Made by a program: the position numbers and the translations under genes. This document shows, piece after piece, positions 50,624 to 62,123 of a stretch of 64,000 bases of DNA (positions are counted from its first letter, which is position 1; each line of letters opens with the position of its first letter). The stretch is from Streptomyces xanthophaeus (lineage in GTDB: Bacteria > Actinomycetota > Actinomycetes > Streptomycetales > Streptomycetaceae): positions 16,916-80,915 of the forward strand of contig NZ_JOFT01000042.1 of the NCBI RefSeq assembly GCF_000725805.1, given 5' to 3'. The notes under the pieces are model-generated. The model was not told where the DNA came from, did no database searches, and saw only the letters and a list, made by a program, of their open reading frames with translations.

Positions 50624-50797
50624 CGCCGGCCCGTCCGCGTCGCGACCCTTCCTGAGTTCCGCCGCGCCCGGGTGTACGCATGCCCCCAGGCGCGGCTCTT
50701 TCTGCTTTCACCCGGTGTCCTTCCGGCGCCGTCCGCTGCCCTGGCGTGGCTTTCTCTCCCCATCCTTCTTCACCTTCACGCCGAGAGGTCTCTTTCC

Positions 50798-52549
50798 ATG
50801 TCGTCCTTCGGACCGGCCAGTCATCACATATCGCGCCGCGTGGCAGCGGTCGCCGTCAGCCTCTTCCTGGCCGGGGGTGCAGTGGCCTGCGGGCCCGAGG
50901 ACGCCGCGGACAAGGCGGGCGCCGACGCCAAGCCGGGCGCCGCAGGGGGCGCGCCGCAGAAGGGCGGCACCCTCACCGTCCTCAACTCCGAGCCGCAGAG
51001 CGACTTCGACCCGGCCCGGCTCTACACCTCGGGCGGCGGCAACGTCCCCTCGCTGGTCTTCCGCACGCTCACCACCCGCAACCGGGAGGACGGCGCACCG
51101 GGCACCAAGGTCGTCCCCGACCTCGCCACCGACACCGGCAAGCCCAACGCCGACGCCACCGAGTGGACGTACACGCTCAAGGACGGGCTGAAGTACGAGG
51201 ACGGCTCCCCGATCACCACCGCCGACATCAAGTACGGCATCGAGCGGTCCTTCGCGGCCGAACTGTCGGGCGGCGCCCCCTACCTGCGGGACTGGCTGGT
51301 CGGTGGGGAGAGCTACGAGGGCCCGTACAAGGACGGCGGCAAGGGCCTCGACTCGATCGTCGTGCCCGACGCGAAGACCATCGTCTTCAAGCTGCGCAAG
51401 CCCGAGGGCGAATTCCCCTTCGTCGCCACCCAGACGCAGTTCGCGCCCGTCCCCAAGGCCAAGGACACCGGCGCCAAGTACGAGGAGCACCCGGTCTCCT
51501 CGGGCCCGTACAAGGTCGTCAAGAACGACAACGACGGCGAGCACCTCACCCTGGAGCGCAACGAGCACTGGGACCCCAAGACCGACGAGGAGCGCAAGGC
51601 CTACCCGGACAAGATCGACGTCCGCTCCGGGCTGGACTCCGCGGTCATCAACCAGCGCCTGACCACCAGCTCCGGCCCCGACGCGGCCGCCATCACCACC
51701 GACACCAACCTCGGCCCGGCCGAGCTCGCCCAGATCGGCGACGACAAGCAGCTGGCTGCCCGCGTCGGCACCGGACACTTCGGCTACGTCAACTACCTGG
51801 CCTTCAACCCGAAGGTGGCCCCCTTCGACAACCCGAAGGTCCGCCAGGCCGTCTCCTACGCCATCAACCGCACCAGCGTGATCAACGCGGCCGGCGGCTC
51901 CGCCCTGGCCGAGCCCGCCACCACCTTCCTGCCCGAGACCGAGGCCTTCGGCCACGCGCCCTACGACCACTTCCCCGCGGGCAAGGCCGGCGACCCGGCC
52001 AAGGCGAAGGAACTGCTGAAGGAGGCGGGCTTCCCCGACGGCATCACCATCACGCTCACCCACTCCACCGCGCAGAACCGGCAGACCAGCCCCGAGGTCG
52101 CCACCGCCGTGCAGCAGGCCCTCGCCGCCGCGGGGATCACCGTCAAGCTGGAGGGCCTGGAGAACAACGCCTTCAACGAGCGCCGCTGGGACGTCAAGAA
52201 CACCCCCGGCTTCTTCCTCTCCCGCTGGGGCGCCGACTGGCCGTCCGGCGGTCCCTTCCTCGCGCCGATCTTCGACGGCCGGCAGATCGTGACCAACGGC
52301 TCCAACTACAACCACGCGCAGCTCGACGACCCGGCCGTGAACGCCGAGATCGACGAGATCGCCAAGCTGACCGACCTCAGCGCGGCGGGCAAGCGCTGGG
52401 GCGCCCTCGACAAGAAGATCGGTGAGCAGGCCCTCACGGTGCCGCTCTTCCACCCGGTCTACAAGCGCCTCGTCGGCAAGGACGTCAAGAACGTCGTCAT
52501 CAGCGACTGGACCGGCGTCCTCGACATCTCGCAGGTCTCCGTCAAGTGA
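50798..52549 (+). CDS. Oligopeptide ABC transporter substrate-binding lipoprotein (third importer)
   Basis: 583-residue family 5 receptor. Lipobox GGAVACGP; the mature part starts with a Gly/Ala/Lys linker. KGGTLTVLNSEPQSDFDPARLY and SSGPYKVVKNDNDG are typical. ATG 50798 has GAGAGG about nine bases upstream. It heads a four-gene operon with a permease order (C before B) and a fused ATPase unlike the two dpp operons at the left of the window, so it is not a duplicate of them. Confidence 0.93.
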   Translation: MSSFGPASHHISRRVAAVAVSLFLAGGAVACGPEDAADKAGADAKPGAAGGAPQKGGTLTVLNSEPQSDFDPARLYTSGGGNVPSLVFRTLTTRNREDGAPGTKVVPDLATDTGKPNADATEWTYTLKDGLKYEDGSPITTADIKYGIERSFAAELSGGAPYLRDWLVGGESYEGPYKDGGKGLDSIVVPDAKTIVFKLRKPEGEFPFVATQTQFAPVPKAKDTGAKYEEHPVSSGPYKVVKNDNDGEHLTLERNEHWDPKTDEERKAYPDKIDVRSGLDSAVINQRLTTSSGPDAAAITTDTNLGPAELAQIGDDKQLAARVGTGHFGYVNYLAFNPKVAPFDNPKVRQAVSYAINRTSVINAAGGSALAEPATTFLPETEAFGHAPYDHFPAGKAGDPAKAKELLKEAGFPDGITITLTHSTAQNRQTSPEVATAVQQALAAAGITVKLEGLENNAFNERRWDVKNTPGFFLSRWGADWPSGGPFLAPIFDGRQIVTNGSNYNHAQLDDPAVNAEIDEIAKLTDLSAAGKRWGALDKKIGEQALTVPLFHPVYKRLVGKDVKNVVISDWTGVLDISQVSVK

Positions 52550-53538
52550 GCCTGCTCCTCGACCCGGCCGAGAAGCCGGCGTCCGCGCCCGGGGCCGTCC
52601 CCCCGGGCGCGGGGGCCCTGCGCCAGGCCGCCCGGCGGCTGCGCCGCCGCCCGGCGGCCCTGGCGGCCGCCGGCGTCCTCGCGCTGCTCGTCCTCCTCGC
52701 CCTGGCCGCCCCGCTGATCTCCCAGCTCACCGGCCAGGACCCGAACGCGTACCACGACGACCTCGTCGACTCCGCCCGCGGCGGCGTACCGACCGGCTCC
52801 TTCGGCGGGATCTCCGCCGACCACTGGCTCGGCGTCGAACCGGGCACCGGACGCGACCTGTTCACCCGGCTCCTGCACGGCGCGCAGGTGTCCCTGCTGG
52901 TCGCCCTCGGCGCCACCGCCGTGCAGATCAGCGTCGGGGTGGCCGCCGGACTCGCCGCCGCGCTCGGCAACCGGTTCGTGGGCCAGCTCATCGGCCGGGT
53001 CACCGACCTGATGATCGCCCTGCCCATGCTGGTCCTCGGCATCGCCCTGACCGCCGTCGTGCCCCCCGGCTTCCCGCGTCCGCTGCTGCTGATCCTCATC
53101 ATCGGCCTGCTCGACTGGGGCGCCACCGCGCGGATGGTGCGCGCCCAGACCCTCGCCCTGCGCGACCTGGACTTCGTCGACTCCGCCCGGCTCTCCGGCA
53201 ACAGCACCTGGCGCATCGCCCGCCGCGAACTGCTGCCCTCGCTGGCCGCCCCCGTCATCACCCTCGCCGCGATCAAGGTCCCGACCAACATCGTGGCCGA
53301 GGCCTCGCTGTCCTTCCTCGGGGTCGGCGTCAAACCGCCCACCCCCTCCTGGGGGCAGATGCTCTCCAGCGCGCAGACCTGGTTCCGCGCCGACCCCCTC
53401 TACGTGCTGCTCCCCGCCGGGCTGCTGTTCGTCACCGTGCTCGCCTTCACCGTCCTCGGCGACGCCGTGCGCACGGCCCTCGACCCGCGCGAGGACTCGC
53501 GCCTGCGGGTCGGCACCAGAAAGGAGCGCTCGGCGTGA
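52546..53538 (+). CDS. Oligopeptide ABC transporter permease, DppC type (third importer)
   Basis: 330 residues. Long N-terminus, six helices, EAA loop LDFVDSARLSGNSTW. VTDLMIALPMLVLGIAL and AEASLSFLGVGVKPPTPSWG are conserved blocks. GTG 52546 overlaps the receptor stop by 4 bases. It ends with a basic tail and overlaps the next permease gene by 4 bases. Confidence 0.92.
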   Translation: MSLLLDPAEKPASAPGAVPPGAGALRQAARRLRRRPAALAAAGVLALLVLLALAAPLISQLTGQDPNAYHDDLVDSARGGVPTGSFGGISADHWLGVEPGTGRDLFTRLLHGAQVSLLVALGATAVQISVGVAAGLAAALGNRFVGQLIGRVTDLMIALPMLVLGIALTAVVPPGFPRPLLLILIIGLLDWGATARMVRAQTLALRDLDFVDSARLSGNSTWRIARRELLPSLAAPVITLAAIKVPTNIVAEASLSFLGVGVKPPTPSWGQMLSSAQTWFRADPLYVLLPAGLLFVTVLAFTVLGDAVRTALDPREDSRLRVGTRKERSA

Positions 53539-54527
53539 CCCTCTTCGTGCTCAGGCGGACCGGCGGCGCGCTGCTCGTGCTGCTCGCCCTGTCCGCCGTC
53601 GTCTACGCCCTCTTCTACCTGGCCCCGGGCGACCCCGCCCGGCTCGCCTGCGGGGAGCGCTGCAACCCGGCGCAGATCGCCCAGGTCCGCGAGCAGCTCG
53701 GCCTGAACGACTCCGTGGCCGTGCAGTACCTGCACTTCCTCCAGGGCATCCTGCTCGGCCGGGACTACTCCGGCGGCGCCGGGCTCGTCGTGCGCTGCGA
53801 CGCCCCGTGCCTGGGGTTCTCGTACCAGAACGACCAGCAGGTCACCGCGCTCGTCCTGGAGCGGCTGCCCGCCACCCTCTCGCTGGCGGTCGGCGCGCTG
53901 GTCATCTGGCTGCTGGTCGGCGTAGGCACCGGGCTGCTCTCGGCGCTGCGCCGCGGCGGGTTCACCGAACGGGCCCTGACCGTCCTCACGCTGGCCGGCA
54001 CCGGCACCCCCGTGTTCATCCTGGGCCTGCTGCTGCTCATGGCCGTCTGCGCCCACCTGCAGTGGCTGCCCTTCCCGACCTACGTGCCGCTGGGCGAGGA
54101 CCCCGAGCAGTGGGCCTGGAACCTGCTGCTGCCCTGGGTGACGCTCGGCCTCTTCGAGAGCGCCAAGTACGCCCGTCTCACCAGGAGTTCTACCCTGGAG
54201 ACGCTCGCCGAGGACCACATCAGGACCTTCCGCGCCTACGGGGTCCCGGAGCGGTCCGTCGTCACCCGGCACGCGGTGCGCGGAGCCGTGGCACCCGTGA
54301 TCGCGCTCAGCGCCGTGGACTTCGGCACCATGCTCGGCGGCGCCGTGCTGACGGAATCCCTCTTCGGGATCCCCGGCCTCGGCAAGACCCTGATCGACGG
54401 GGTGCGGGTCGTGGACCTGCCCGTCGTGGTGGGGGTCGTCCTGACCATCGGCACCGCCGTGGTCGTCGCGGGCGCCGTCGCCGACCTGTTGTACGCCGCA
54501 GCGGACCGGAGGGTGGCCCTCGTATGA
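53535..54527 (+). CDS. Oligopeptide ABC transporter permease, DppB type (third importer)
   Basis: 330 residues. Starts VTLFVLRRTGGALLVLLALSAVVYALF. An extra extracellular loop carries three Cys (RLACGERCN, RCDAPCLGFSY), unusual for the family. The EAA loop is EDHIRTFRAYGVPERSV. GTG 53535 overlaps the upstream stop; ATG of the ATPase gene overlaps its own stop, so all four genes are tightly coupled. Confidence 0.92.
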   Translation: MTLFVLRRTGGALLVLLALSAVVYALFYLAPGDPARLACGERCNPAQIAQVREQLGLNDSVAVQYLHFLQGILLGRDYSGGAGLVVRCDAPCLGFSYQNDQQVTALVLERLPATLSLAVGALVIWLLVGVGTGLLSALRRGGFTERALTVLTLAGTGTPVFILGLLLLMAVCAHLQWLPFPTYVPLGEDPEQWAWNLLLPWVTLGLFESAKYARLTRSSTLETLAEDHIRTFRAYGVPERSVVTRHAVRGAVAPVIALSAVDFGTMLGGAVLTESLFGIPGLGKTLIDGVRVVDLPVVVGVVLTIGTAVVVAGAVADLLYAAADRRVALV

Positions 54528-56158
54528 CGCAGGCGTTGGTGGAAGTGCGCGACCTCGTCGTCGACTTCCCGGTCGGAGGAGCGGGCGAGCGGCTACGGGC
54601 CGTGGACGGGGTCTCCTTCACCCTGGAGGGCGGCCGCGCCCTCGGCATCGTGGGCGAGTCCGGCAGCGGGAAGTCCACCGTCGCCGCCGCCCTGCTGGGC
54701 CTGCACCACGGGACCGGCGCCCGCCTGGACGGCACCGTCCGGGTCGGCGGCACCGACCCGGCCTCGGCCTCCCCGCAGGAACTGCGCCGGCTCCGGGGCG
54801 GGACGGCCGCCATGGTCTTCCAGGACCCGCTCAGCTCCCTCGACCCCTACTACGCCGTCGGCGACCAGATCGCCGAGGTCCACCGGATCCACGCGGACGT
54901 CTCCCGGCGGGCCGCCCGCGCCCGGGCCGTCGAGGTCCTCGACCGGGTGGGCATCCCCGACGCGGCACGCCGCGCGCGGGCCCGGCCGCACGAGTTCAGC
55001 GGCGGCATGCGCCAGCGCGTCCTCATCGCCATGGCCCTCGCCTGCGACCCGCAGCTGCTCATCGCCGACGAGCCCACCACCGCCCTCGACGTCACCGTCC
55101 AGGCCCAGGTCCTGGACCTGCTGCACGGACTGCGCGAGGAGCGCGGCCTCGGCCTGCTCCTGGTCACGCACGACGTGGGGGTGGCCGCCGAGAGCGTGGA
55201 CGAACTGCTGGTCATGCGGCACGGAGCCGCCGTGGAACGAGGGCCCGTGGGCCGGATCCTGACCGCCCCGGAGCACCCGTACACCAGGGCCCTGCTGGCG
55301 GCCGTACCGCGACTGGACGCCCCGGCCCCGCGACGCCGGCCGGACCCGGCAGAGGGCTCGCGCGCCGGCGTCCCCGTCGTCGAATCCTTCGCGGTGCGGC
55401 GCGAGTTCGGGCGCGGCAGGCGCCGGGTCACCGCCGTCGACGGGGTGTCCCTCGCCGTGCACCCGGGCGAGACCCTCGGGATCGTCGGCGAGAGCGGCTC
55501 CGGCAAGAGCACCCTCGGCCGGATGCTCGTCGGCCTGCTCGCGCCGAGCTCCGGCCAGGTCAGGCACGGGGGCCGGCAGACGGAGGGGGTGGCCCCGGAC
55601 GTGCAGATGGTGTTCCAGGACCCCGTCTCCTCCCTCAACCCGCGCCGCTCCGTGGGCGAGTCCGTCGCCGACCCGCTGCGCGCGGCCGGGGAACGGGACG
55701 AGGGCGCGATCCGGGCCCGGGTCGAGGAACTCCTCGTGCGCGTAGGGCTGGAGGCCGCGCACTACGACCGCTACCCGCACGAGTTCAGCGGCGGCCAGCG
55801 CCAGCGCGTGGGCATCGCCCGCGCCCTGGCCCCCCGGCCCCGGCTGATCGTCTGCGACGAGCCGGTGTCCGCCCTGGACGTGACCACGCAGGCGCAGGTC
55901 ACCGCGCTGCTGGCGGAGCTCCAGCAGGAGCTGGGCATCGCCCTCGTCTTCATCGCCCACGACCTGGCGGTGGTCCGCCAGGTCAGCGACCGGGTCGCCG
56001 TGATGCGCGGCGGCGAGGTGGTGGAGGAGGGCCCGGTGGACGAGGTCTACGACCGGCCGGCCCACCCCTACACGCGGCAGCTGCTGGCCGCCGTACCCGT
56101 GCTGGACCCGCTGCTGGCCGCCGCCCGCCGCACCACCCGGCAGGAGGTCTTCGCCTGA
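54524..56158 (+). CDS. Fused double ATPase (DppD-DppF) of the third oligopeptide importer
   Basis: 544 residues carrying two complete ABC cassettes. First: GESGSGKST, FSGGMRQR, LLIADEPTT. Second: [24 protein letters not shown]. The linker with HPYTRALLAAVPRLD between them matches the end of DppD, but it lacks the full Cys-rich tail seen in separate subunits. Both cassettes are intact, in contrast to the two broken dppD genes at the left. ATG 54524 overlaps the permease stop. Confidence 0.93.
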   Translation: MTQALVEVRDLVVDFPVGGAGERLRAVDGVSFTLEGGRALGIVGESGSGKSTVAAALLGLHHGTGARLDGTVRVGGTDPASASPQELRRLRGGTAAMVFQDPLSSLDPYYAVGDQIAEVHRIHADVSRRAARARAVEVLDRVGIPDAARRARARPHEFSGGMRQRVLIAMALACDPQLLIADEPTTALDVTVQAQVLDLLHGLREERGLGLLLVTHDVGVAAESVDELLVMRHGAAVERGPVGRILTAPEHPYTRALLAAVPRLDAPAPRRRPDPAEGSRAGVPVVESFAVRREFGRGRRRVTAVDGVSLAVHPGETLGIVGESGSGKSTLGRMLVGLLAPSSGQVRHGGRQTEGVAPDVQMVFQDPVSSLNPRRSVGESVADPLRAAGERDEGAIRARVEELLVRVGLEAAHYDRYPHEFSGGQRQRVGIARALAPRPRLIVCDEPVSALDVTTQAQVTALLAELQQELGIALVFIAHDLAVVRQVSDRVAVMRGGEVVEEGPVDEVYDRPAHPYTRQLLAAVPVLDPLLAAARRTTRQEVFA

Positions 56159-56357: not shown

Positions 56358-57968
56358 GTGCCACTCGTGCGGATCGGACTGCTCACGGAAGGTGGTTATC
56401 CGTATGCGACGGGCGAGGCGAGGCTGTGGTGCGACCGGCTCGTGCGCGGGCTCCCGCAGCACGAGTTCGAGCTCTACGCCCTGAGCCGCAGCGCCGAGCA
56501 GGAGCGCACCCGGGTCCCGCTGCCCGAGCACGTCACCCGGGTCCGCACGGCGCCCCTGTGGGCCCCGGCCGACGACGGGCGGACGTACGCCCGGCGCGAA
56601 CGGCGCCGCTTCGCCGGCTGCTTCAAGGAACTGGTCCGGGGCATCTGTGCGGGAGAGCCCGAGCCCTTCGCGGCCGGGCTCTACGGACTCGCCGCACTCG
56701 CCTGGGACCAGGGCGGCCTGTACGCGGCGCTGCGCTCCGAGTCCGCGGTGCGGACGGTGGAGTCGGCCTGCCGGGCACCGGGCGCGAGCCGCACCGTCCA
56801 GGCGGTACGGGTGCCCGACCTGCTGGAGTTCGTCGACGAACTGGAGCGCATGCTCCGGCCGTTGTCCCTCGACTGGTACGAGGAACACGGCGGCCTCGGC
56901 GCGGTCGACGTCTGCCACGCGGCGGCGGGCGGGGTGGCGGCCATCCCCGGACTGCTGGCCAAACGCTTCTTCGGGGTGCCCCTGCTCGTCACCGAGTACG
57001 GGGTCCAGCTGAGGGCCCACTACCTCGGCCGGCCCGACGACGACCGCGGCCCCGACGCCCGCCCCGCCCTGCGCGCCCTGCTGGCCGCCTTCCACGGCAG
57101 GCTGGCCGGGGAGATCTACGCCCAGGCCGACCTCCTGACCCCCGGGAACGCGCACTCCCGGCGCTGGCAGGAGCGGTGCGGGGCCCCGCGGGAGCGGCTG
57201 CGGACGGTCTACCCGGGGATGGAGGCGGACCGATTCGCCACCATCGGCGAGGCCGAGGACGGCGGGGACCCCGACACCCTGGTCTGGGTCGGCCGGGTGG
57301 AGCCCGCCAAGGACCTGATCGGCCTGCTGCACGCCTTCGCCGAGGTCCGCAGGGCCGAACCGCGCACCCGGCTGCGGATCTTCGCGGGCAGCGCCGAGGC
57401 GGGATACCTCGCCGACTGCCGTTCGCTGGCCGCACAGCTCTTCCCCGACGAGGCCGCCGACGCCGTCACCGCCGGGGAGAACCCGGTCACCTTCGAGGAG
57501 ATCGGCGGGCCCGAGGCCCCCACCTCGGCCGAGGCCCATGCCGCCGGGCAGGTCGTCGTGCTGTCCTCGGTGATCGAGGGCTTCCCGCTCACCCTGGCCG
57601 AGGCCATGTTCTGCGGCCGGGCCACCGTCTCCACCGACGTCGGGGCGGTCCGCGAGGTCATCGGCGGCACCGGGCTGGTCGTCCCGCCGCGCAATCCGCG
57701 GGCACTCGCCGACGCCTGCCTCTCGCTGCTGCGCGACCCCGAACGGGCCCGGCGGCTCGGCGCGGCGGGCCGGGCGCGCGCCCTGGAGCTGTTCACCGTC
57801 GAACAGAACGTGGCCGCCTTCCAGGACATCTACCTCGGCCTGCTGGCCCGCGGATCCGCCCGGCCGGACGGGGAGATCCCCTTCGCCCGGCCCCCGGAGG
57901 CCCGGGTCCCGGGCCACTGGACCACCCCCACCTGGGCTCCGGTCCCATCCACGGAGGCATCGGCATGA
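56358..57968 (+). CDS. PelF-like glycosyltransferase (DUF3492 + GT4)
   Basis: 536 residues. The N-terminus VRIGLLTEGGYPYATGE closely matches the start of PelF, the cytoplasmic glycosyltransferase of Pel-type exopolysaccharide, and its DUF3492 domain fills residues to about 265. The GT4 half has the nucleotide-sugar site with the E-x7-E motif (SSVIEGFPLTLAEAM) and ends GLLARGSARPDG. PelF uses UDP-HexNAc. GTG 56358 has GGGAG seven bases upstream. It starts a four-gene cluster (membrane protein, epimerase, spherulin-4 protein). Confidence 0.85.
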   Translation: MPLVRIGLLTEGGYPYATGEARLWCDRLVRGLPQHEFELYALSRSAEQERTRVPLPEHVTRVRTAPLWAPADDGRTYARRERRRFAGCFKELVRGICAGEPEPFAAGLYGLAALAWDQGGLYAALRSESAVRTVESACRAPGASRTVQAVRVPDLLEFVDELERMLRPLSLDWYEEHGGLGAVDVCHAAAGGVAAIPGLLAKRFFGVPLLVTEYGVQLRAHYLGRPDDDRGPDARPALRALLAAFHGRLAGEIYAQADLLTPGNAHSRRWQERCGAPRERLRTVYPGMEADRFATIGEAEDGGDPDTLVWVGRVEPAKDLIGLLHAFAEVRRAEPRTRLRIFAGSAEAGYLADCRSLAAQLFPDEAADAVTAGENPVTFEEIGGPEAPTSAEAHAAGQVVVLSSVIEGFPLTLAEAMFCGRATVSTDVGAVREVIGGTGLVVPPRNPRALADACLSLLRDPERARRLGAAGRARALELFTVEQNVAAFQDIYLGLLARGSARPDGEIPFARPPEARVPGHWTTPTWAPVPSTEASA

Positions 57969-58963
57969 CCGTCGAAGAAGCCACGCCCACGGCTGCCCCG
58001 CTCGCCACGCCCGTGCCCGCCCCGGCCCCCGCGCCCGCGTCCGCTCCGGCCCCCGCGCCCGCTCCGGTCCCGGCCCCCGTGCCGGCCGCGGCTCCGGCCG
58101 GGATCCGCCGACGGGCCGCCGGGGACCCGGTCAAGGCCCTGCTCCACCGGCACCGGGACCTGTGCGAACGGGCCGTGGACCCGCTGGAGATCGCCGCCGG
58201 GCTGGAGGCCCACGGCATCACCGACCGCACCGCCGCACGGTTCCGGCACCGGGACGTCTTCTCGCTCGCCGAGGAGCTGTACGCCCGGACCGCCCGCACC
58301 GAGACCCCGGGCGCCGCCACGGGCCTGCTGCCCCGCGAGGTGACCGGCGGCCCCCGCGCGCTGAGGGGCCTGGGCTGCGCCCTGCTGCCCGGGGCCCTCG
58401 CCCTCGGCGCCGCCGCCGGGATGCCGTTCGCGGCCACCGCCGCCGCGCTCGCCGCCGTGGCCGCCCTGGTGTGGCCCGGGCGGGCCGCCGGGGGCCGGTT
58501 CCCCTGGCTCGCGCACCTGCTCGCCGCGGCCGTCGCCGTCTGGGCCGCCCACCGGTACGGCACCGCCCTCGCCGTCGCCCTGGCACTGGCCGTCGCCCCC
58601 GGGCACGTGGCCGCTGCCGCCTACGCCTCCCGGGCTCGCCGCAGGCTCGCCGCCAGCCGGGCCCTGGAGGACTTCGCGGACGGGGCCCGGCCGCTGCTGG
58701 CCGGGGCCCTGCTGGGCTTCACCGCAGCCGCCGCGGGGGCGGCCGCGGTCGCCGGAGCACCGCTCGCGCAGGCCCTGCCGCTCGCCCTGCTGCTGTTCCT
58801 GACCCGGCTGCTGCTGCGGCACGGCGCCCACCGGGGGCCGCTCGTCGCAGCCCTGGCGCTCGCCCTCGTCCCGTTCCCGGCCGCGGCACCCGCCGCCGCG
58901 GCGGGGCTCCTCGTACAGGCGGCGCTCGCGCTGTCCCGGGCCTCCGCGCACGCCCGCCCCTGA
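57965..58963 (+). CDS. Multi-spanning membrane protein of the polysaccharide cluster
   Basis: 332 residues. A 45-residue Ala/Pro-rich N-terminus (APAPAPASAPAPAPAPVPAP), a short helical segment, then about eight hydrophobic helices rich in Ala and Leu. ATG 57965 overlaps the glycosyltransferase stop (ATGA). It is a plausible transport or scaffolding partner for the polymer, in the place where Pel operons carry PelG-like membrane proteins, but sequence identity to them is not evident. Confidence 0.75.
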   Translation: MTVEEATPTAAPLATPVPAPAPAPASAPAPAPAPVPAPVPAAAPAGIRRRAAGDPVKALLHRHRDLCERAVDPLEIAAGLEAHGITDRTAARFRHRDVFSLAEELYARTARTETPGAATGLLPREVTGGPRALRGLGCALLPGALALGAAAGMPFAATAAALAAVAALVWPGRAAGGRFPWLAHLLAAAVAVWAAHRYGTALAVALALAVAPGHVAAAAYASRARRRLAASRALEDFADGARPLLAGALLGFTAAAAGAAAVAGAPLAQALPLALLLFLTRLLLRHGAHRGPLVAALALALVPFPAAAPAAAAGLLVQAALALSRASAHARP

Positions 58964-59050
58964 CGTCCCCCGACCCCCGTCCCGCCACCACGCCCTCCGG
59001 AGCCGACGCCGGAGCGCCGTACCCGTACCCCGCCCCATCCACCCACCCGC

Positions 59051-59104
59051 AAGGAGAACAAGGACATGACCGGCCAGCCAACCGAACAAGGGGTCACGCG
59101 ATGA
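59051..59104 (+). promoter_or_regulatory. Strong Shine-Dalgarno with a 12-codon mini-ORF coupled to the epimerase
   Basis: AAGGAG at 59051-59056 serves ATG 59066, whose 12-codon frame ends in TGA overlapping the epimerase start (ATGA at 59101-59104). The epimerase itself has no strong ribosome-binding site. This looks like a translational coupling leader. Confidence 0.45.
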
Positions 59105-60111
59105 GGGTGCTGCTGATCGGAGCCAACGGATACCTCGGCCGCTACGTGGCGGACCGGCTGCTCGCCGACCCCGCCGTCCAGCTCACCGCGCTCGGCCGCG
59201 GGGACGACGCCGACGTCCGCTTCGACCTCGCCACCGGCAGCCCCGGCGCGCTCACCCGGTTCCTCGACGCCGTCCACCCCGGCGTCGTCATCAACTGCGC
59301 CGGAGCCACCCGCGGCGGAGCCCGGGAACTCACCCGGCACAACACCGTCGCCGTGGCCACCATCTGCGAATCCCTGCGCCGCAGCGGCTGCGGGGCCCGG
59401 CTCGTCCAGCTCGGCTGCGCCGCCGAGTACGGCCCCAGCCAGCCCGGATCGTCCACGGCCGAGGACGCCGTGCCGAGACCCGGCGGGCCGTACGGGGTCA
59501 GCAAGCTGGCCGCCACCGAACTGGTGCTGGGCTCCGGGCTCGACGCCGTGGTCCTGCGGATCTTCTCGCCCGTCGGCCCCGGCACCCCCGCCGGATCCCC
59601 GCTCGGGCGGCTCGCCGAGGCCATGCGCCGGGCGATGCAGTCCGGGGACGGCGAGCTCAAGCTCAGCGGGCTCGGGGTCCAGCGCGACTTCGTCGACGTC
59701 CGGGACGTGGCGCGGGCCGTGCACGCCGCCTCGCTCTCCGCGGCCCAGGGCGTGGTCAACATCGGCACCGGCCGTGCGGTCCGGCTGCGCGACGCCGCCG
59801 CCGTGCTGGCCCGGGTCGCCGGGTACGGGGGCGCCCTGCACGAGCTGGACCTGCCCCACGGCGGCTCCCCGCAGCCGCACCAGCACCCCGGCCGCCCGAC
59901 CGGACTGGCCACCATCGGATCCCCCCGGTCCGAGGCCACGTCCGAGCAGCTCGCCGCCGCGGCCCCGCAGCCGTACCCCTACCCCGACGGCTGCGGAGCC
60001 TGGCAGCAGGCCGACGTCCGCACCGCCCGGGACCGGCTCGGCTGGCGGCCCCGGATCAACCTGGAGGAGTCCCTCGCGGACATCTGGATGGAGGCGGCGT
60101 GCCGCATCTGA
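59101..60111 (+). CDS. NAD-dependent sugar epimerase/dehydratase (extended SDR)
   Basis: 336 residues. Rossmann motif VLLIGANGYLGRY (GxxGxxG). Catalytic Tyr/Lys in YGVSK. At the position of the active-site Ser/Thr (normally SxAxxYG) the sequence has CAAEYG, so Cys replaces it, an unusual change that may alter activity. Nucleotide sugars such as UDP-GlcNAc are likely substrates, which would suit a PelX-like role in supplying UDP-GalNAc. ATG 59101 is coupled to the mini-ORF upstream. Confidence 0.85.
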   Translation: MRVLLIGANGYLGRYVADRLLADPAVQLTALGRGDDADVRFDLATGSPGALTRFLDAVHPGVVINCAGATRGGARELTRHNTVAVATICESLRRSGCGARLVQLGCAAEYGPSQPGSSTAEDAVPRPGGPYGVSKLAATELVLGSGLDAVVLRIFSPVGPGTPAGSPLGRLAEAMRRAMQSGDGELKLSGLGVQRDFVDVRDVARAVHAASLSAAQGVVNIGTGRAVRLRDAAAVLARVAGYGGALHELDLPHGGSPQPHQHPGRPTGLATIGSPRSEATSEQLAAAAPQPYPYPDGCGAWQQADVRTARDRLGWRPRINLEESLADIWMEAACRI

Positions 60112-60863
60112 CCACCCCGCCGGGGGCCACGGCGGCGGCGACCGACGCCGGCCGCCTCGGCCTCGGGGCCCCCGGCTACGCGCACCCGCTGCTCGCCCCG
60201 GTCGAGTGGGCGGAGCTGACCCGTCCGGGCACCCCGCTGCACTGGGCCGTGCTCAACGTCACCGACGGCCCGGGCGGCCGTCCCGACCCGCACTGCTCGG
60301 AGGCGGCGGTCCGGCTCCGGGCCGCCGGGGCCGGCACGGGGCGCCGGCTGCTCGGTCATCTCGCGATGCGAGACGGCGAGCGGTCCTTCGGAGAGCTGAT
60401 CTCCGATGCCCACCGTTTCCGCGACTGGTACGGCGTGGGCGGCTTCTACCTCGCCGACGCCCCGGCCGGGAAGGCGGAGCTGGAGCAGGTGCGCCGCGTC
60501 GTCGACACCCTGCGGGGGCTAGGGGACGGCCTGCGGATCGTGCTCGGGCACGGCACCCATCCCTATGAGGGCTATGCGGAAACCGCTGATCAACTGGTCA
60601 CGTTCGCCGGTTCCTGGGCGGACTACCGCTGGTCACAGGTGGCGGAGTGGACCGCCGATCACCCGGCGGAGCTGTTCTGCCACTTCGTCCACGGAGTGCC
60701 CCGCACCCACCTGGAGGAGGCCGTCCGGATCGCCCGCTGGCAAGGCGCGGGCACCGTCTGGTTCACGGACCGGCGCGGAAGCGGGGACCGGGACCCGTGG
60801 GCCTCGATGCCCGGGTACTGGGACGAAATCGTCTCGCGGATCGGGACGGGTGTCTTGGAATGA
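60099..60863 (+). CDS. Spherulin-4/GH114-like TIM-barrel protein
   Basis: 254 residues with GGFYLADAPAGKAELEQV and GHGTHPYEGYAETAD blocks of the spherulation-specific family 4. Related domains (GH114, PelA hydrolase) cut alpha-1,4-galactosaminides. There is no signal peptide, so either it acts inside or secretion is unconventional. GTG 60099 overlaps the epimerase stop by 13 bases. It ends the cluster, with the CRISPR-like hairpin 40 bases on. Confidence 0.82.
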   Translation: MPHLTTPPGATAAATDAGRLGLGAPGYAHPLLAPVEWAELTRPGTPLHWAVLNVTDGPGGRPDPHCSEAAVRLRAAGAGTGRRLLGHLAMRDGERSFGELISDAHRFRDWYGVGGFYLADAPAGKAELEQVRRVVDTLRGLGDGLRIVLGHGTHPYEGYAETADQLVTFAGSWADYRWSQVAEWTADHPAELFCHFVHGVPRTHLEEAVRIARWQGAGTVWFTDRRGSGDRDPWASMPGYWDEIVSRIGTGVLE

Positions 60864-60944: not shown

Positions 60945-62123
60945 GTGTCGCTGCCACCCTTGGTTGAGCCAGCCGCAGAGCTCACCGTTGACGAGGTCCG
61001 CCGGTACTCGCGGCACCTGATCATCCCCGATGTCGGGATGGACGGCCAGAAGCGCCTGAAGAACGCCAAGGTGCTGGCCGTGGGCGCCGGCGGCCTCGGC
61101 TCGCCCGCCCTCATGTACCTGGCCGCGGCAGGCGTCGGCACGCTGGGCATCGTCGAGTTCGACGAGGTCGACGAGTCGAACCTGCAGCGCCAGATCATCC
61201 ACAGCCAGGCGGACATCGGCCGTTCCAAGGCCGAGTCGGCCCGCGACAGCGTGCTGGGCATCAACCCGTACGTGAACGTGGTCCTCCACGAAGAGCGGCT
61301 CGAAGCCGAGAACGTGATGGAGATCTTCAGCCAGTACGACCTCATCGTCGACGGCACGGACAACTTCGCCACGCGCTACCTGGTCAACGACGCCTGCGTC
61401 CTGCTGAACAAGCCGTACGTATGGGGCTCGATCTACCGTTTCGACGGCCAGGCCTCGGTCTTCTGGTCCGAGCACGGCCCGTGCTACCGCTGCCTGTACC
61501 CGGAGCCCCCGCCGCCGGGCATGGTCCCGAGCTGCGCCGAGGGCGGCGTCCTCGGCGTGCTCTGCGCGTCGATCGGGTCCATCCAGGTCACCGAGGCCAT
61601 CAAGGTCCTCACGGGCGTCGGCGACCCGCTGGTCGGCCGCCTGATGATCTACGACGCCCTGGAGATGCAGTACCGCCAGGTCAAGGTCCGCAAGGACCCC
61701 GACTGCGCGGTCTGCGGTCCGAACGCGACCGTCACCGAGCTCATCGACTACGAGGCCTTCTGCGGCGTCGTGTCGGAGGAGGCCCAGGAGGCCGCGCTCG
61801 GCTCCACGATCACTCCCAAGCAGCTCAAGGAGTGGATCGACAACGACGAGCCCATCGAGATCATCGACGTCCGCGAGATCAACGAGTACGAGATCGTCTC
61901 GATCCCCGGCGCGAAGCTGATCCCCAAGGGTGAGTTCCTGATGGGCACCGCCCTCCAGGACCTGCCGCAGGACAAGCGGATCGTCTTGCACTGCAAGACG
62001 GGTGTCCGCAGTGCGGAGGTCCTCGCGGTCCTGAAGTCCGCGGGCTTCTCCGACGCCGTGCACGTCGGCGGCGGCGTGATCGGCTGGGTCCACCAGATCG
62101 AACCGGACAAGCCGGTCTACTAG
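60945..62123 (+). CDS. moeZ: MoeZ, adenylyltransferase/sulfurtransferase
   Basis: 392 residues. The N-terminal ThiF/MoeB domain (GAGGLGSPALMYLAAAGVGTL; zinc Cys pairs CYRC and CAVC) activates the C-terminus of sulfur-carrier proteins. The C-terminal rhodanese domain has the active Cys350 in HCKTGVRS. It serves molybdopterin, thiocarboxylate-based sulfur transfer and cysteine biosynthesis. GTG 60945 has GGAG upstream. It corresponds to Rv3206c, whose neighbour should be the DUF3152 gene now 10.4 kb away. Confidence 0.94.
   Translation: MSLPPLVEPAAELTVDEVRRYSRHLIIPDVGMDGQKRLKNAKVLAVGAGGLGSPALMYLAAAGVGTLGIVEFDEVDESNLQRQIIHSQADIGRSKAESARDSVLGINPYVNVVLHEERLEAENVMEIFSQYDLIVDGTDNFATRYLVNDACVLLNKPYVWGSIYRFDGQASVFWSEHGPCYRCLYPEPPPPGMVPSCAEGGVLGVLCASIGSIQVTEAIKVLTGVGDPLVGRLMIYDALEMQYRQVKVRKDPDCAVCGPNATVTELIDYEAFCGVVSEEAQEAALGSTITPKQLKEWIDNDEPIEIIDVREINEYEIVSIPGAKLIPKGEFLMGTALQDLPQDKRIVLHCKTGVRSAEVLAVLKSAGFSDAVHVGGGVIGWVHQIEPDKPVY

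Follow-up and report, generated by a model that had tools for sequence, protein, structure and literature searches.

The galactosaminogalactan cluster of Aspergillus, which we take to consist of Uge3, Gtb3, Agd3, Sph3 and Ega3, shares with the locus described here the combination of an epimerase, a GT4 glycosyltransferase (GT) and an Sph3-like spherulin-4 protein; the locus differs in having no counterpart of Agd3 or Ega3, and its spherulin-4 protein has lost the active-site residues of Sph3. The bacterial agd3-linked operons share with it a cytoplasmic GT and a multi-spanning membrane protein and, in some actinobacterial examples, a spherulin-4 protein (PMC7229062), whereas our locus lacks agd3 and GH114, has a shorter membrane protein, and carries a spherulin-4 protein that lacks the catalytic Glu. 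The Gram-positive Pel operon pelDEADAFG has a PelF-like GT in common with the locus, and some such operons have an accessory GalE-like epimerase and PelA-hydrolase-like genes nearby (PMC7112168); unlike in this operon, no PelD, PelG or deacetylase was recognised in or beside our locus. Finally, the fold of the MATE/MOP flippases (MATE, WzxE, MurJ), with its two six-helix lobes, is predicted for the membrane protein of fuller clusters, while the membrane protein of our locus keeps a relative of the second lobe, with most of the first lobe seemingly absent, and has an extra N-terminal domain not aligned to MATEs.

The window analysed here is a 64,000-nucleotide stretch of Streptomyces xanthophaeus DNA. 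The original prediction of a gene set of the Pel/galactosaminogalactan kind in a Streptomyces host was borne out in both respects. Our preferred reading, to which we give about an even chance, is that the locus descends from a galactosaminogalactan/Pel-type exopolysaccharide cluster and has been reduced and put to a new use.

Gene order and neighbours of the locus

Four ORFs, named A to D, were confirmed on the + strand over positions 56358-60863 (Table 1). They had been described as joined by overlaps; A and B do overlap, by 4 nt, as do C and D, by 13 nt, but B and C are set apart by a gap of 137 nt. The leader ORF preceding C was also looked at in relatives of the locus. Transporter-like genes, named from reading their translations only, lie upstream of A.

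Table 1. Features of the window locus, in positions of the window
Feature	Description	Position	Strand	Length
A	PelF-like GT4 glycosyltransferase (DUF3492 + Glycos_transf_1)	56358..57968	+	536 aa
B	Membrane protein, Ala/Pro-rich N-terminus, conserved cytosolic domain at about residues 55-110	57965..58963	+	332 aa
Leader ORF	Short leader, read from sequence; stop overlaps C start as ATGA	59066..59104	+	12 codons
C	Extended SDR, nucleotide-sugar epimerase-like	59101..60111	+	336 aa
D	Spherulin-4 (GH135-related)	60099..60863	+	254 aa
moeZ-like gene	ThiF + Rhodanese; constant downstream neighbour	60945..62123	+	

The protein encoded by A matches PF11997 with 103.3 bits and narrowly passes the NCBIfam PelF model NF038011 (112.3 bits, cut-off 100), in agreement with its earlier naming as PelF-like. 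C matches PF01370 (127.4 bits), and D matches the spherulin-4 family PF12138 (63.6 bits against a cut-off of 30.2). D had been called spherulin-4/GH114-like; the first half of this name is retained, and the second is dropped, as D gave no GH114 match at E<=1. No GH114 gene was found at the window locus, the single PF03537 match of the genome lying on another contig (C1). The trio of GT, multi-spanning membrane protein and spherulin-4 protein of agd3/galactosaminogalactan-type loci is present, and no agd3-like gene adjoins the locus in the flanks that were read. A PelA-type deacetylase domain was found neither in A to D nor in the moeZ-like gene. At the sequence level, the PelG model PF16933 matched neither B nor any other protein of the genome, though the control matched in Thermotoga maritima, which extends to the whole genome the earlier remark that no PelG-like gene is visible. 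The PelD model PF16963 also gave no match in the genome, but here the control profile matched nowhere.

The name moeZ/moeB for the downstream gene was given by analogy with SCO5178, a moeB listed among NdgR-bound regions in PMC4340878. A literature search, mainly outside subscription papers, showed nothing on this moeZ-linked locus among the matches listed, and a search for SCO5179-SCO5182 returned no paper naming these genes, the only matches being for SCO5178.

A fuller cluster in the same genome and the membrane protein B

DUF3492 occurs twice in the 8.6-Mb genome. The second copy lies on contig C1 (L003), in a cluster encoding an Agd3-like protein, a PelF-like GT, a 532-aa membrane protein, a spherulin-4 protein (115.1 bits) and GH114 (281.9 bits); the Agd3 match is weak, with 19.2 bits against a Pfam cut-off of 27.6. 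The GT, membrane protein and spherulin-4 protein of the two loci are homologous (47% for the two GTs over residues 103-496), and C1 differs from the window locus in having the Agd3-like protein, GH114 and the catalytic residues, and in having no C-like epimerase gene beside it. Since actinobacterial agd3 operons with a GT, a multi-spanning protein, GH114 and sometimes spherulin-4 are described in PMC7229062, this kind of fuller cluster is already known. Among 22 fuller clusters (L003, L058 and L082-L101), some of whose stretches may end too early for the counts to be complete, 21 have an agd3 homolog, 17 GH114, 20 spherulin-4 and 11 a C-like epimerase.

Membrane helices are predicted for B, profile searches gave it no family match, and it shares 98% identity with a protein from Streptomyces xanthophaeus. 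In a profile alignment, B aligns to the N-terminal domain of the C1 paralog and to its residues 354-531; B contains a stretch akin to the second half of the MATE-fold protein from fuller clusters. The model of the C1 paralog itself matches the MATE fold. The model of B resembled no known fold, with no MATE among the matches listed, so the lost lobe is deduced from profile alignments that hold little diversity (Neff about 2), by which B seems to be without most of the first transporter lobe. The multi-spanning membrane protein of the original prediction is upheld as far as the helices go, and in place of a recognisable PelG we found a shortened relative of a MATE-fold protein. The MATE-fold membrane protein of the C1 type is itself missed by the PelG model.

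Active-site residues of the spherulin-4 protein, the SDR and the glycosyltransferase

D aligns with Sph3 of Aspergillus clavatus (5c5g; E 1.4e-5), whose chain positions 116, 117 and 172 correspond, with a constant offset of 50, to the residues that we presume to be numbered Asp166, Glu167 and Glu222. At these positions, D in the window has Ala, Asp and Ala. PMC12054363 gives Glu222 for Sph3 and prints the pair as Asp196/Glu222; we take Asp196 to be a misprint for Asp166, because the Asp-Glu spacing is 58-69 in the other families named there and would be 26 here. Asp166 and Glu222 were both kept in all 20 fuller-cluster spherulins, whereas in the same alignment 19 window-type copies of D kept Glu222 in none and Asp166 in 9.

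A larger residue survey drew on 80 loci and took rows of at least 100 bits (77 for GT, 79 for C, 63 for D); a further set of named loci overlaps with it, so that the two sets of counts are not added. In the survey, the one D row with Glu222 was that of L130, a locus outside the window type. All 62 window-type rows lack this Glu, L122 having Asp at the position; it was likewise kept in 0/78 D rows of the named Streptomyces loci. Asp166 was kept in 45 of the 63 rows and even the spherulins of fuller clusters have another residue for Glu167, so some copies of D might retain residual activity. Labelling the window genes as enzymes of the PelF and GH135 kinds would give a misleading picture of D. 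From reading its sequence, D has no evident signal peptide.

The locus had been proposed to form and trim a polymer. This is not supported by D, which lacks the GH135 acid/base Glu in every window-type copy examined, nor by B, which is no recognisable PelG, nor by C, in which Cys stands for the catalytic Ser of SDRs. That the four genes make up a working, compact Pel-like system, in which galactosaminoglycan is made, exported by B and trimmed by D, appears quite unlikely to us. A PelF-like GT with intact motifs does stand in one conserved unit with a membrane protein, an SDR and a spherulin-4 protein, and galactosamine-containing wall material has been reported for Streptomyces in PMC7229062, but the missing Glu of D, the lack of a deacetylase at the locus, the shortness of B relative to its MATE-fold paralog, its failure to match PelG and the presence of a fuller cluster in the same genome argue against it. 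By sequence, the C1 cluster appears to be a better candidate than the window locus for galactosaminoglycan in the host, and our reading, if true, would point to clusters of this type for the reported wall material.

C keeps the GxxGxxG and YxxxK motifs, and Cys replaces the SDR catalytic Ser, whose position was assigned by alignment and by what we take to be the position in GalE. The Ser was kept in 11/11 C-like copies of fuller clusters and replaced by Cys in 20/20 window-type copies of the same alignment. In the larger set, all 60 genus rows have Cys, and rows of other genera have Cys in 8/19 and Ser in 11/19 (L130 included); L122 has Phe for the catalytic Tyr. An SDR may stay active with Cys in place of Ser.

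In the window, the donor-binding GRxxPxKD and EX7E motifs of A are intact. All four residues of these motifs (R, K, E and E) are also intact in 46/61 genus rows, in 7 of the 16 rows from other genera, L130 among them, and in 71/73 rows of the named Streptomyces loci, the other two being cut sequences; 7 of the 80 named loci, mostly on short contigs, gave no GT row. Rows of other genera have lost motif residues in 9 of 16 cases. Clean loss of at least two residues was observed in L053, L055 (a gap at the Lys column and changed residues at the other motif positions), L056, L114-L116, L123, L125 and L127-L129, and single changes in L135, L151 and L156; the gapped rows L057, L124, L150, L154, L157, L162 and L169 are fragments or frame breaks and do not count as clean losses. 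The PelF scores fall in line with these losses, from 163.8 bits in C1 and 161 in L130 through 112.3 in the window to 47.9-53.8 in four disarmed copies. As the window GT is intact, the window sequence does not establish a loss of polymer synthesis.

Values of dN/dS were obtained from 14 locus pairs by a simple method (NG86) on very GC-rich genes. For A they were 0.21-0.25 in five of six pairs with a live GT (0.41 in the sixth) and 0.36-0.71 in eight pairs with a dead GT, all below 1; A looks relaxed where the GT motifs are gone. For D, the six live-GT pairs gave 0.15-0.25 in five cases and 0.54 in the other, and the three dead-GT pairs in which D is present gave 0.38-0.66. The values for B were 0.29-0.73. 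C, the most conserved of the four proteins, had 0.03-0.28. C and D look constrained, and D looks conserved despite its lost residues.

The disarmed copies raise the alternative that the whole window-type set is a non-enzymatic, membrane-associated pseudoenzyme complex, in which C binds NAD or a nucleotide sugar and acts as a sensor or scaffold, and that no glycan is made even in the window organism. The motif losses in other genera and the clean ones in L053, L055 and L056, the dead-GT values that stay below 1, the D without Glu222 and the C with Cys would all fit. We nevertheless consider this unlikely, given the intact GT motif in the window and in most genus and named rows and the low dN/dS of A in nearly all live-GT pairs.

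Distribution, descent and proposed function

Orthologs of the window GT (at least 50% identity) were found in 55/61 genus genomes, the exceptions being G001, G008, G017, G046, G050 and G058, and a fuller-type GT is also listed in 28 of these 55 and not in the other 27. Of the first 19 orthologous genus loci examined, 18 have A to D and the moeZ-like gene as one group, L056 being the one where D was not found; a grouping so conserved indicates that the four-gene arrangement is not due to chance. At E<=1e-40, C was matched in 113/121 family genomes and 15/17 genera, at least one of these matches being the copy of a fuller cluster; at E<=1e-50, it was matched in 84/99 order genomes, namely 84/84 of the genus and 0/15 from two other families. 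The best 80 named loci are all titled Streptomyces. The moeZ-like gene was not seen beside L134, where the contig ends, or beside L130 in the stretch that was read.

Within the 80 surveyed loci, a set partly chosen by C, C is present in all 80, while 3 loci lack A, 3 lack B and 15 lack D. This, with the low dN/dS of C and the C1 cluster having no C-like epimerase beside it, would suit the view that C alone is under strong selection, as an epimerase for other pathways such as the C1 cluster, and that A, B and D are drifting remnants. Such a view seems decidedly improbable when A to D stay together across most of the genus and D has its low live-GT values; moreover, the 27 of 55 genomes that list no fuller-type GT indicate that C is not kept solely to serve fuller clusters.

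Trees of GT, C and D, built on chosen subsets, placed the window-type copies in one clade each time (support 1.0). L130 was sister to this clade with support of 0.998 (GT), 0.80 (C) and 0.80 (D); in a wider tree of C, the joint clade of L130 and the window type had only 0.604, which tells against our reading, and the window type alone had 0.761. The Cys copies form one clade in the tree of C (0.986), and the GT losses fall on several branches. L130/L254, from another genus of the family, have an intact cluster with an agd3 homolog, a GT with the four motif residues, a 626-aa membrane protein, a second SDR, a nucleotidyltransferase, an epimerase with Ser, a spherulin-4 protein with Asp and Glu, and GH114. 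With the window-type clade sister to the intact L130, a single Cys clade and scattered GT losses, the most likely origin of the window type is a complete cluster that lost its parts step by step.

For the reduced and re-purposed descendant that we favour, we propose an ancestral plan of an agd3-like gene, a PelF-like GT4, a MATE-fold flippase-like protein, an SDR, a nucleotidyltransferase, an epimerase, spherulin-4 and GH114. As the sequences show, the window lineage has no agd3-like gene, no GH114, no second SDR and no nucleotidyltransferase, and D has lost its catalytic acid/base residue; judged by profile alignment, B has most likely lost much of the first transporter lobe. The window GT most likely still transfers a sugar, with a UDP-HexNAc as the probable donor; C would provide or sense this nucleotide sugar, and D would bind the glycan rather than cut it. 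The product would then be shorter, membrane-linked or intracellular, and not a Pel-style exported and trimmed free polymer. In some sister lineages the GT is disarmed too, with C always kept. The window locus may still transfer a sugar, but it is improbable that it exports and trims a polymer.

More tentatively, we suggest as a possibility, though not as the probable case, that throughout the Streptomycetaceae-like family sampled a galactosaminogalactan/Pel-type polysaccharide synthase locus was disarmed piecewise and kept under selection beside the moeZ-like gene as a membrane-bound, largely pseudoenzymatic complex around a nearly invariant SDR, with a new role outside the matrix. If true, this would be a family-wide case of an exopolysaccharide machine turned stepwise into something else. 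The pieces disarmed would be the hydrolase, the exporter lobe, the epimerase serine and, in some lineages, the GT itself. Intact (L130/L254), partial (L122/L255 and L121) and window-type loci provide the stages for comparison.

Leader ORF and second codon of the epimerase-like gene

The short leader ORF that precedes gene C (SDR epimerase-like protein) is listed in the table below together with the other features located here. Of 159 loci compared upstream of C, 143 carry an ATG leader accompanied by a ribosome-binding-like motif, an arrangement that was rare outside the genus. Other loci likewise have a comparable short ORF 5' of C. Codon 2 of C was AGG or AGA in 157/159 loci, and the share of these two codons among the remaining Arg codons of the same genes was 171 of 4983 (3.4%). 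The leader ORF and codon-2 pattern may reflect translational coupling, or an AT-rich codon bias at gene starts.

Features located in the window and elsewhere in the genome
Feature	Position	Strand	Remarks
Short leader ORF	59066-59104	+	own ribosome-binding site; ORF end overlaps C start (ATGA)
Peptide-type ABC transporter-like genes	50672-56158	same as A-D	directly upstream; translation reading
Fuller cluster (L003)	contig C1:417000-436000		Agd3-like protein, PelF-like GT, MATE-fold membrane protein, spherulin-4, GH114
Third spherulin-4 protein	L008:5355-6560		translation reading

Relatives in other genera

The closest relative of the window type is the cluster of L130 and L254, which is intact, with all parts and catalytic residues present, and is hosted by another genus of the family. 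In L121, L122/L255 and L117, which come from other genera, C is still accompanied by the moeZ-like gene; depending on the locus, A (PelF-like GT4), A plus B (membrane protein), or A, B and D (spherulin-4) went undetected between or ahead of the two.

Neighbouring genes and further loci

By translation reading, the transporter-like set upstream of A comprises a binding protein, a permease and fused ATPases, and a pepA/lpd/sucB-like gene group lies near the fuller cluster. Read likewise, the third spherulin-4 protein has a signal-peptide-like start, and its apparent catalytic positions are occupied by Asp and Glu.
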